From Acetobacter okinawensis JCM 25146 (GTDB lineage: Bacteria > Pseudomonadota > Alphaproteobacteria > Acetobacterales > Acetobacteraceae), in contig NZ_BAJU01000005.1 of NCBI RefSeq assembly GCF_000613865.1, positions 1 through 64,000 on the forward strand: a stretch of 64,000 nt of DNA, in the 5' to 3' direction. The notes beneath the pieces are model-generated. The model made no database searches and had not been told where the DNA came from. It saw only the letters and a program-made list of their open reading frames with translations. The translations under genes and the position numbers were made by a program. Each line of letters opens with the position of its first letter. The stretch's first letter is position 1. Positions 51,703-54,921 of the stretch are shown here, in pieces.

Positions 51703-51846
51703 GAGCCGTCTGGCCCTGTTGGGTGGTGCCATGCCGGTAAAACGATGCTGCCACACAAAGGCGCTTTGGTGGTGTGTGCTGCAAGCAGGAAGGAAGAGAG
51801 TATAGTGGCTCTTGAAGAAATGTCCGTCAGCGGGCAGAGAGACAAC

Positions 51847-52545
51847 ATGAGTGACGTTCTCCAAGAATACCCCTCCGGCGGAGGGGAAAGCCCCGTACCT
51901 CCTCCCTCGCGTTCCGCGCTTGATGCAGAGGCGGTCAAACAGGCCTATCGACGTTGGGCTAATGTTTACGACGTGGCCTTTGGTGGTATTTCCCGCTTTG
52001 GCCGCCTGCGGGCGGTGGATGCGGTCAATGGCCTACCCGGCACAAATGTGCTCGAAGTCGGGGTGGGTACAGGTCTGGCGTTGCCCCATTATACCAAGGC
52101 CAAGGCCATTACCGGCATTGACCTCTCGACCGATATGCTGGCCAAAGCCCGTGAGCGCGCACAGCATGACAACCTGACAAACGTAAACGCTCTGCTCGAA
52201 ATGGACGCGGAAGAAACCTCGTTCGAGGACAACTCCTTCGACATTGCGGTTGCCATGTTTGTTGCATCTGTGGTGCCACACCCGCGCAAGCTGCTGCGTG
52301 AGCTCAAGCGGGTTGTCCGTCCGGGCGGGTATATTCTGTTCGTCAACCACTTTCTGGCCCCCGGTGGCATCCGTGGTGCAGTGGAACACGCCATGGCGCG
52401 TGCCTCCCACTCTCTTGGCTGGCACCCGGATTTTGCAATGGAATCGCTGCTCCCGCAGGAGGATATTGCACGGGCCTACATCCAGCCTGTGCGACCGTTT
52501 GGCCTGTTTACGCTGGTAACGCTGGAAAACCTGCCGAAAACGTAA
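51847..52545 (+). CDS. SAM-dependent methyltransferase, probable phosphatidylethanolamine N-methyltransferase
   Basis: The 232-residue class I methyltransferase has motif I VLEVGVGTGLALPHY, motif II-III around ITGIDLSTDMLAKARERA, and FDIAVAMFVASVVPHPRKL. Upstream is the YRRWANVYDVAFGGISRFGR segment characteristic of the Rhodobacter/Sinorhizobium PmtA type, which methylates phosphatidylethanolamine to phosphatidylcholine. Lipids of acetic acid bacteria contain phosphatidylcholine, so this fits. I use the ATG at 51847; ATGs upstream are possible. It lies 144 bases after gshB. A ubiquinone methyltransferase (UbiE-like) is less likely. Confidence 0.8.
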   Translation: MSDVLQEYPSGGGESPVPPPSRSALDAEAVKQAYRRWANVYDVAFGGISRFGRLRAVDAVNGLPGTNVLEVGVGTGLALPHYTKAKAITGIDLSTDMLAKARERAQHDNLTNVNALLEMDAEETSFEDNSFDIAVAMFVASVVPHPRKLLRELKRVVRPGGYILFVNHFLAPGGIRGAVEHAMARASHSLGWHPDFAMESLLPQEDIARAYIQPVRPFGLFTLVTLENLPKT

Positions 52546-52696: not shown

Positions 52697-53965
52697 ATGA
52701 TCTCCGCGCATAGCCAGCCTATCCCGCAATCTGCCACGGTGGGTAAAACCCCCAGCCAGCGGCAGGATTCCGCCGTCGGAACAGCCTACCTGCTGCTTGC
52801 AGCCCTTGCGGCGCTTGTTGGGGGTGGGGTGTCCGTTCTGGCAGGTCTGGGCATGTTGCCCGCCACAGACCTGTGCGGCAGGCTGACGCAGGCACACCCG
52901 GCACTGATGCTGCTTTATGTGGTGGTGCCTGCTCTGGTCAGCGGTTTTGGCACGCTCTGGCTACCTCGGGCTCTTGGGCGCGAGCACATGGTGCTGGGGC
53001 GGCTGAATCTGGCGGGTGTTGCTGTTCTTGCATTGTCTTTTCTGCTGACCTGCGCACTGGCCGATGCGCGCTTTGCGCATGTATTATGGTCGGTGGGTGC
53101 GCTCATGTCAGCCATGGTGCTGCTGGCCACAATTTTTGATAGCTGTGCGGATAGTCGGACGCAGGCATCCTTCTCCCCCTTTGTCTGGGGGGAAATGCTC
53201 TCCGCCACGGTTGTGCTGTTGTGCGCTCCTGTTTTTGCGGCTGCTGTGCTGCGTACGTGGCTGTGGCCTGCGATCAGCCCGGTTGTCGGGGCTGAGTATT
53301 TTGCAGGGCCTGTTGGCCTGATTGTGCTGCTCGCCGGGTTTGGCATTGTGTTTGAGATGGCAGCGCGGATCGGGCAGGTGCAGACACGGCCTGTTGCTTA
53401 TATTATGGCGACAACCGCCGCCATTGGTGTGGTGGCATGGGCCAAGAGCAGCCTTGCACATGGGAGCGATAGCCAGAACGCACTGCTTATCGGCAATGCT
53501 GGTCTGGCGCTGTGTTCCCTGTCGGCTGTGTGTCTTGCTGGGCTGTGGCTTTCCGGTACGTGGCGGGCGCGTGTTTCTCTCCACACACCGCTGTTGTGGG
53601 GGATGGGATTTTTAGCGGTCGTGGCTGGTGGCTGGGTGGTGCAGCTTGTGCAGGGTACAGGCCTGCACCCCGCTTTGCAGCTTGGCGCTCTCTATGCGGT
53701 TTGTGGTGGTTTTTACCTGTGGCGGGGCGAGGCCTGTGGTTTTTGGTACCCGCAGTCTCTGGCCAAACTCCATTTTGCGCTGACTGCGGCCGCAACACTC
53801 TGCGTGTTTGGCTCTGGCATGCAGGTGCTGGGGTGTGCCCTGTTTGGCGTGGCGGCAGTGGTGTTTGTTCTGGCGGCGGCCATTAGCTTCCAGCGCGCTA
53901 TTCCCATGCCGGATAGCCGTGTGGGCGTGGCTGAGGCCAGTACGGCAGGGAGTGCTGTTGTATGA
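52697..53965 (+). CDS. Degenerate cytochrome c oxidase subunit I homologue (CtaD-like)
   Basis: This intact 422-residue membrane protein aligns along its length with subunit I of aa3-type oxidases. Residues 66-90 (AHPALMLLYVVVPALVSGFG...) match helix II, keeping His67, the first low-spin heme ligand. PFVWGEMLSATVVLLCAPVF, TPLLWGMGFL and YPQSLAKLHF match other conserved blocks. But GHPEVY (CuB His and cross-link Tyr) is AGPVGL, WAHH is WAKS (248-251), and the HFHY segment with the heme-a3 and second low-spin His is deleted near residue 325. It cannot be a normal oxidase. Its stop overlaps ctaB by 4 bases. The ATG at 52697 follows GGAG. Confidence 0.83.
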   Translation: MISAHSQPIPQSATVGKTPSQRQDSAVGTAYLLLAALAALVGGGVSVLAGLGMLPATDLCGRLTQAHPALMLLYVVVPALVSGFGTLWLPRALGREHMVLGRLNLAGVAVLALSFLLTCALADARFAHVLWSVGALMSAMVLLATIFDSCADSRTQASFSPFVWGEMLSATVVLLCAPVFAAAVLRTWLWPAISPVVGAEYFAGPVGLIVLLAGFGIVFEMAARIGQVQTRPVAYIMATTAAIGVVAWAKSSLAHGSDSQNALLIGNAGLALCSLSAVCLAGLWLSGTWRARVSLHTPLLWGMGFLAVVAGGWVVQLVQGTGLHPALQLGALYAVCGGFYLWRGEACGFWYPQSLAKLHFALTAAATLCVFGSGMQVLGCALFGVAAVVFVLAAAISFQRAIPMPDSRVGVAEASTAGSAVV

Positions 53966-54921
53966 GCGAAGCCAGTCTTTCTGCCCCGCAGCCCAGACGC
54001 CCCCGTTTTCAAACAGAACAGGTTGGTACGCAGGCGCGTGACTGGCTGGCGTTGCTCAAGCCCCGCGTGATTTCGCTCGTTGTTTTTACGGGTGCTGCGG
54101 GAATGTTCATGGCGCCGGGGCATCTGAACCCGTTTATCGGGCTGGTGACCATCTTCTGCATCTGTCTGGCATCTGGTGCGGCCGGGGCCATTAACATGTG
54201 GTATGACCGCGATATTGACGCGATCATGCAGCGGACCATTACCCGCCCGGTTCCCTCGGGCCGCATTCCGCAAAACGAGGCACTGGCTTACGGCGTTGGG
54301 CTCTCCTGCCTGTCTGTCTGCCTGATGTGGATTGCAACCAACACGCTGGCTGCTGCTATTCTGGCTTTTTCCATTTTCTTTTATTCTGTCATCTACACAA
54401 TGTGGCTCAAGCGCTCCACGCCGCAGAATATTGTCATCGGCGGTGCCGCGGGGGCTTTCCCCCCCATGATCGGCTGGGCCGCAGCCACAGGCCATATGGC
54501 GGTCATGCCGGTTGTCATGTTTGGTATTGTGTTCTTCTGGACACCACCTCACTTCTGGTCCCTGGCGCTGTATGCCTGCAAGGATTATGGGCGTGCGGGT
54601 ATTCCCATGCTGCCGGTTGTGCGCGGCGTGCGGCATACGCGCTGGCAGATATTTTTCTACACTTTGGTGCTGCTTGCTGTGTCGCTTATTCCGTCTTTTG
54701 TCGGTGCCAGTGGCTGGCTTTATACAGTGACTGCGGTGGTGCTGGGGCTTGGCTTTGTTGCCTGCGCCGTACGCATATTGCTTGAACCGCAGGCCCAGAA
54801 TGGTGCAAGCCAGAAGGGGGATAAGGCCGCGCGTATATCCTTCCGTTTTTCGCTGGCGTATCTCTTTTTTCTGTTCTGTGGTTTGTTGGGCGACCACTTT
54901 TTACAAATATGGATGCACTGA
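53962..54921 (+). CDS. ctaB: Heme O synthase (protoheme IX farnesyltransferase)
   Basis: CtaB farnesylates protoheme to heme O, needed by bo3- and aa3-type oxidases. The 319-residue protein has about nine helices. The diphosphate-binding motif NMWYDRDIDAIM and the second Asp-rich region are present, as are WLALLKPRVISLVVFTGAAG and RTITRPVPSGRIP. It is translationally coupled to the CtaD-like gene (ATGA overlap). No ctaC, ctaE or ctaA gene is in the window, so the enzyme more likely serves a ubiquinol bo3 oxidase encoded elsewhere. Confidence 0.96.
   Translation: MSEASLSAPQPRRPRFQTEQVGTQARDWLALLKPRVISLVVFTGAAGMFMAPGHLNPFIGLVTIFCICLASGAAGAINMWYDRDIDAIMQRTITRPVPSGRIPQNEALAYGVGLSCLSVCLMWIATNTLAAAILAFSIFFYSVIYTMWLKRSTPQNIVIGGAAGAFPPMIGWAAATGHMAVMPVVMFGIVFFWTPPHFWSLALYACKDYGRAGIPMLPVVRGVRHTRWQIFFYTLVLLAVSLIPSFVGASGWLYTVTAVVLGLGFVACAVRILLEPQAQNGASQKGDKAARISFRFSLAYLFFLFCGLLGDHFLQIWMH

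Follow-up and report, generated by a model that had tools for sequence, protein, structure and literature searches.

The window analysed here, a stretch of 64,000 nucleotides from Acetobacter okinawensis JCM 25146 (contig NZ_BAJU01000005.1), carries at positions 52697-53965 of the forward strand a gene for a homologue of oxidase subunit I (CtaD/COX1) that lacks the oxygen-reducing centre. Rather than the relic of a dead gene, the product is probably a helper protein that still functions. The overall reading preferred here, with a probability of roughly 45%, is that a CtaD was remodelled into a one-heme membrane protein that would work with the heme O synthase CtaB, perhaps by receiving or carrying heme O destined for the quinol oxidase. 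Its parts differ in strength. That the protein is under selection and has a genuine site for one heme is likely, judging from the aligned sequences, and heme O handling together with CtaB is a tentative role to which slightly less than even odds were given.

The reading frame is unbroken over 422 residues, as the first-pass annotation of the window had stated, and the protein was matched by the Pfam COX1 model with 46.9 bits (cut-off 34.8). The nearest NCBIfam model was CtaD with 54.6 bits, which did not reach the equivalog cut-off of 670.75; the CyoB model gave 16.6 bits. The solved structures found to be related by HMMER search were subunit I of aa3-type oxidases (best E value 6e-18). An AlphaFold2 model made with 63 family sequences had a mean predicted local distance difference test score (pLDDT) of 88.3 and a predicted template modelling score (pTM) of 0.88. 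It contained 12 helices of transmembrane length and a poorly predicted C-terminal stretch, and no extra domain was seen. The top Foldseek matches of this model were also subunit I structures (E value 6e-11), and VIA-align superimposed it on subunit I of R. sphaeroides over 388 residues with a Z score of 34.5 and a root-mean-square deviation of 3.4. The product as modelled has the 12-helix fold of subunit I, in agreement with the subunit I-like protein that the annotation had described.

Motif counts were taken from a MAFFT alignment of 88 distinct homologues and 14 canonical CtaD proteins. The 88 include L112, a divergent protein considered below, which was counted for motifs and ctaB loci; it was left out of a second set of 91 homologues (the 88 minus L112 plus four rows, carrying 17 genus labels) and of a set of 87. 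Also excluded from the counts were the fragmented L023, L125 at a contig end (derived or canonical type not settled), the duplicates L056 and L130, and other COX1 proteins (L126-L129 and L131-L133). Pairwise identity among the 91 homologues had a median of 26% and a minimum of 17%. The gene and the positions within it that carry the argument are:

52697-53965, forward strand: CtaD/COX1-derived gene, 422 residues, 12 predicted transmembrane-length helices, without the O2-reducing centre

52895-52897, forward strand: codon of His67, axial-ligand position of the low-spin heme in helix II (91/91 homologues, 14/14 canonical CtaD)

53303-53320, forward strand: AGPVGL replacing GHPEVY, with loss of the CuB His (0/88) and of the cross-linked Tyr (0/88)

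53438-53449, forward strand: WAKS replacing WAHH, with loss of both other CuB His in the window protein (from the alignment)

53666-53668, forward strand: codon of His324, second His of HFHY, axial-ligand position in helix X (91/91 homologues, 14/14 canonical CtaD; HMMER alignment)

In heme-copper oxidases the low-spin heme is ligated axially by the two histidines at these positions of helices II and X; we take His67 to correspond to His102 of R. sphaeroides and His61 of the bovine enzyme, and His324 to correspond to His421 and His378, respectively. Both were present in all 88 and in all 91 homologues. Of 216 columns that are invariant in the 14 canonical CtaD proteins, only four were also invariant in the 91 homologues, namely H67, W164, W248 (the Trp of WAHH/WAKS, 91/91) and H324. 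Among the 12 invariant histidines of canonical CtaD only H67 and H324 were fully kept, the next best being kept at 0.70. As the same four columns were the sole invariant ones in a 63-row alignment without canonical CtaD, the result is independent of forced alignment. The first-pass annotation had taken the HFHY segment to be deleted and the second low-spin axial ligand to be lost with it. Neither claim stood: HMMER and MAFFT both showed that about 15 residues immediately before HFHY are deleted, while the second His itself remains as His324 and is invariant with and without canonical CtaD. The two kept axial histidines turn a protein without a catalytic centre into a possible one-heme protein. 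In helix IV, Trp131 (53087-53089) was found in 88/91 homologues, at a position occupied by Ala, Ser or Val in canonical CtaD; its role may be to fill space or to pack against the heme.

The oxygen site has fared differently from these ligands. The replacements of GHPEVY and WAHH, which the annotation had read correctly, were confirmed by the alignment, and the three CuB His and the cross-linked Tyr are all absent from the window protein. Among the 88 homologues the first His of WAHH was retained in 24 and the second in three. The proximal His of heme a3, also absent from the window protein, was found in 1/88, the propionate Arg pair in 0/88 (and 0/91 of the larger set), and the proton-channel Lys in 0/91. 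When the protein was compared with NorB, the three His that serve as FeB ligands at the CuB positions were likewise all missing. On these residues the protein cannot be an oxygen reductase of the heme-copper family, and the statement that it cannot reduce oxygen was borne out. The comparison with CtaD homologues that the annotation had suggested thus gave a split outcome, with the O2-site motifs lost and both low-spin heme histidines kept.

Conservation was also compared between the two heme pockets, by a list of contact residues for each. With the axial His included, 0.39 of the low-spin pocket contacts were kept and 0.08 of the a3/CuB contacts (p 0.0002). Without the ligand His the a3/CuB contacts were still kept at only 0.08 against a background of 0.28 (p 0.003), and because they are kept below background the O2 site, as far as the alignment tells, is dismantled or free to change. 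The ligands, more than the walls of the pocket, are what mark the putative low-spin site.

The lengths of the segments between conserved columns, which include helix residues besides loops, pointed to a change on one side of the membrane. Sidedness was presumed from oxidase topology. All five cytoplasmic segments had the same median length as in canonical CtaD. Five of the six periplasmic segments were shorter, I-II by 7 residues, III-IV by 28, V-VI by 14, IX-X by 15 and XI-XII by 22, and only VII-VIII was unchanged. In oxidases the periplasmic side is where subunit II docks and where the heme propionates are capped, and as it is this side that was trimmed, the remaining heme site would be more open than in an oxidase.

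The protein can be compared with the A1-type aa3 CtaD of R. sphaeroides and P. denitrificans, which it resembles in the 12-helix fold, the low-spin axial His, the ctaD-ctaB gene order and the best profile and structure matches. It differs from this CtaD in the missing CuB site, heme a3 His and proton-channel Lys, in the five shortened periplasmic segments, and in that no subunit II partner was seen. The genome (92% complete) contained one COX2 match, inside the cyo locus, and no subunit II (CuA) partner for the 422-residue protein was found in it. The cyo locus also holds a second COX1-family gene, which is in two frames in this assembly, as is the heme A synthase gene (ctaA) of the same genome.

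The loss of the catalytic residues would also be expected of a decaying pseudogene, the remnant of a lost oxidase, and Matsutani in 2014 is said to have put the absence of ctaD function down to accumulated mutations. A broken frame was in fact found in one relative (G029, 86% complete). The ratio of nonsynonymous to synonymous substitutions (dN/dS), determined by a counting method (NG86) with dS above 1 in some pairs, nevertheless ranged from 0.05 to 0.24 across 86 pairs of similar homologues, with 0.096 for the pairing with the nearest relative. Neighbouring genes were included for seven pairs, in which the values were 0.02-0.04 for ctaB, 0.03-0.08 for the methyltransferase gene, 0.12-0.25 for the mannosyltransferase-like gene and 0.10-0.17 for the COX1-derived gene, which is therefore under clear constraint although it changes faster than ctaB does. 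Open frames were found across 17 genus labels, and two homologues marked as having an internal stop in the matched region (G145 and G148) yielded open frames of 391 and 435 residues. In view of the dN/dS values and of the conservation of H67 and H324 in 91/91 homologues, decay was rejected as very improbable, and the claim that the gene is kept agrees with the purifying selection observed.

The annotation had further argued from an intact gene among 18 genes broken by indels, a figure adopted here from the annotation itself. Between 43824 and 62000 (18.2 kb) the window differed from an A. okinawensis contig by 14 indels, of which 11 were single-base and many lay in short homopolymers, and none fell within 52697-54921. 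The intactness of the gene therefore stood, but the argument drawn from it is weak. The pattern suggests assembly error more than gene decay, because most of the indels are single-base and many lie in homopolymers, and because the genes for cyo subunit I and heme A synthase, elsewhere in the assembly, are likewise split over two frames. Among records labelled Acetobacter, two of which are metagenome-assembled genomes, the gene itself was present at 22 loci, with A. okinawensis the nearest (98%); the search used Acetobacter-like patterns and could thus name close relatives only. A reading error or contamination was rejected on these grounds.

The link to ctaB was the most regular feature of the surroundings, and the coupling reported by the annotation was confirmed. 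The adjoining features are:

51745-52545, forward strand: methyltransferase gene directly upstream, a conserved neighbour (21/21 wide loci)

53962-53965, forward strand: ATGA, overlap of the stop of the gene with the start of ctaB by 4 bases

53962-54921, forward strand: ctaB, heme O synthase, with one match in its genome (NCBIfam, 329.2 vs 210.3 bits)

A ctaB gene followed the homologue in 88/88 loci, and a 4-base overlap (ATGA or GTGA) was found in 70 of 87 homologues. The conserved order was regulator, glycosyltransferase, mannosyltransferase, glutathione synthetase, methyltransferase, COX1-derived gene and ctaB. Among 21 loci five of these clusters were present in 21/21, the glycosyltransferase in 19, and the COX1-derived gene in 20 and, by a separate look, in L051. 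In deeper relatives (L047-L055) three extra genes (clusters 17, 15 and 18) lay between the mannosyltransferase and glutathione synthetase genes, and two of them resembled MotB and MotA by eye. Each of 20 carriers, of which 14 were seen as sequence and six by profile match only, had one strong ctaB match, so that CtaB appears to be their sole heme O synthase.

In outgroups of the class, ctaB followed a canonical ctaD in 6/7 loci (all but L061), with threonine synthase nearby in those six. Since the position of the gene matches this arrangement, the simplest explanation is that it is the old ctaD, which encoded subunit I of a cytochrome c oxidase since lost and was altered at its original site beside ctaB. 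An origin as a recent copy of cyoB was rejected, because the profiles favour CtaD (54.6 vs 16.6 bits) and the place corresponds to ctaD-ctaB in those six outgroup loci. L112 / L141 (genome G115), a CtaD-like protein of 520 residues adjoining ctaB, has lost GHPEVY, WAHH and HFHY except for the second His, but retains long IX-X and XI-XII segments. The two profiles gave it similar scores (232.7 and 227.3 bits), and it is an apparent evolutionary intermediate. In a tree of 60 rows, unrooted and with very long branches (P_L137 3.2, P_L116 2.36), one branch (100/100) parted canonical CtaD and CyoB from all COX1-derived rows. As L112 lies among the derived rows, the derived group alone needs two changes; CyoB lies inside the canonical ones. 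A single origin of the derived group is compatible with this tree but is not proved by it.

Together with the kept heme ligands, the gene overlap would also suit a regulator that responds to heme or oxygen and adjusts CtaB activity, loaded by heme O as feedback. As no extra domain was seen in the AlphaFold2 model, such a function was considered quite improbable.

The distribution of the gene was followed in a place listing over 299 genomes, in which carriers are those among the matches listed. Five genomes (G011, G015, G063, G096 and G191) had no strong ctaB match, and no heme-copper oxygen reductase was found in them. Three had no COX1-family match, and two had a single one, a quinol-type nitric oxide reductase. 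Quinol-type nitric oxide reductases use heme b only. Next after the methyltransferase gene came a Tim44-like gene in four of these five genomes and an M16 gene in the other, and neither the COX1-derived gene nor ctaB was detected between these neighbours; about 0.9 kb at this place in G063 was not assigned. G011 and G015 carry the same genus label, so the losses number four to five at most. In G314, whose sole COX1-family protein is of the cbb3 type, the COX1-derived gene and ctaB were both absent among the matches listed. The gene was carried by the small genomes G075, G093 and G293 and by G064. Small genomes without a COX1-family or strong ctaB match were G011, G015 and G096, the first two of which also had no cytochrome c1 match. 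Quinol-type nitric oxide reductases with a NorB cytochrome c-like domain and a COX1 domain were found in G024 (L180), G063 (L178) and G191 (L179); similar long frames occurred in G005, G008, G014, G021 and G027, the class being assigned by scan in the former three only.

Cytochrome c1 was absent in 4/21 carriers and present in three of the five genomes without the gene pair. A link to the bc1 complex was not supported, as the distribution of cytochrome c1 does not follow the gene. The same result bears on the possibility that the protein is a b- or o-type cytochrome for electron transfer, taking electrons for instance from quinol or a dehydrogenase. Both low-spin heme ligands are kept in a respiratory fold, as such a cytochrome would need, but the only COX2 match of the genome lies in the cyo locus, the periplasmic docking side is trimmed, and there are no further invariant ligand residues, so that this function was judged rather improbable.

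SURF1 was found in none of the 21 carriers, compared with 7/16 other genomes. The nine other genomes without it were the five that lack the gene pair and G227, G317, G218 and G115. This absence is compatible with a vacancy filled by the COX1-derived protein but does not show it.

The preferred mechanism can be put as follows. The protein would hold one bis-His low-spin heme in the membrane, and its shortened periplasmic loops would leave this heme more open. It would work with CtaB, most likely as an acceptor or carrier, taking newly made heme O or presenting heme B, and the heme could then be passed to CtaA, to apo-CyoB or to both. This mechanism would be analogous to such a job in other bacteria, where Surf1 as well as subunit I itself is involved. 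In its most specific form, a subunit I turned into a non-catalytic carrier of a single heme would pass heme O from CtaB to the quinol oxidase and replace Surf1 in acetic acid bacteria; this version is doubtful, with perhaps one chance in three.

Several observations weigh against the heme-carrier reading. Once the two axial His are left out, conservation of the low-spin pocket contacts falls to 0.34, not significantly above background (0.28; p 0.18). The Arg in contact with the formyl group of heme a was kept in 7% of the homologues and the propionate Arg pair in none of the 91, so that heme A is unlikely and the affinity may be low; for want of the formyl-contacting Arg the bound heme would probably be heme O or B. 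Two genomes, G227 and G317, keep ctaB and a subunit I of bo3 length and have no such gene between the methyltransferase and ctaB (L138, L139, L171 and L174), from which it follows that the COX1-derived gene is not strictly needed. That it is absent together with ctaB elsewhere could be due simply to the two genes lying side by side. SURF1 is missing in G227, G317 and G218 (which has a canonical-type CtaD) as well as in the five genomes without the pair, and its absence is thus not specific to carriers. The ctaB and ctaA genes of A. pasteurianus are moreover said, in the 2014 abstract of Matsutani, to be active in E. coli, and CtaB therefore need not have a COX1-derived partner there. Our estimates for a real one-heme site and for heme O handling were both lowered slightly, since conservation of the pocket apart from the two His does not exceed background and since neither the gene nor SURF1 is present in three genomes that have a quinol oxidase or CtaD.

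The first of these points agrees better with a heme-free structural partner that would stabilise CtaB in the membrane, a role suggested in PMC10715153. The adjoining ctaB in all loci, the frequent gene overlap and the joint absence of both genes in five genomes would all be expected of such a partner. It leaves unexplained, however, why the sole histidines invariant in 91/91 homologues sit at the axial-ligand positions, and the premise given there, that all ligands are lost, does not hold. A heme-free partner was therefore regarded as less probable than the one-heme protein, at about one chance in four.

The gene and its link to ctaB are already published. In PMC10715153 a 'deranged COX1-like' protein of Acetobacter encoded with ctaB is said to lack all metal ligands, with reference to Matsutani 2014 (BBA 1837:1810). 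It is the same gene, with ctaB, without a binuclear centre and in hosts without cytochrome c oxidase. Unlike in that description, both low-spin heme histidines were present here in 91/91 homologues, and purifying selection and side-specific loop loss go beyond it. In PMC5158111, ctaD is listed beside ctaB in A. pasteurianus, and PMC10588857 reports that three genes for transporters of the MFS type are needed by the bo3 oxidase of E. coli. According to PMC5249081 and PMC9145763, the heme chaperone Surf1c of P. denitrificans works on subunit I and Surf1q serves the ba3 oxidase. The likeness to these proteins concerns a possible role only, by analogy, namely heme delivery to subunit I (PMC5249081), and carriers differ from Surf1-bearing systems in that SURF1 was not found in any of the 21. 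In the open-access literature searched, no papers were found on a COX1-like low-spin heme protein or on a COX1 pseudogene of acetic acid bacteria, and the kept low-spin ligands, the side-specific trimming, the family-wide purifying selection and the joint absence with ctaB were not met there.

The results correct the claim published in PMC10715153 that all cofactor ligands were lost, and they show an oxidase active site that has been dismantled while the low-spin heme ligands were retained. The insertion of cofactors into subunit I is described as unresolved in PMC5249081. A conserved one-heme relative of subunit I that is coupled to heme O synthase would make the heme-delivery step directly testable in cultivable acetic acid bacteria. 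If the version in which it carries heme O in place of Surf1 is true, the protein would have the oxidase fold but would serve in heme trafficking instead of redox catalysis.
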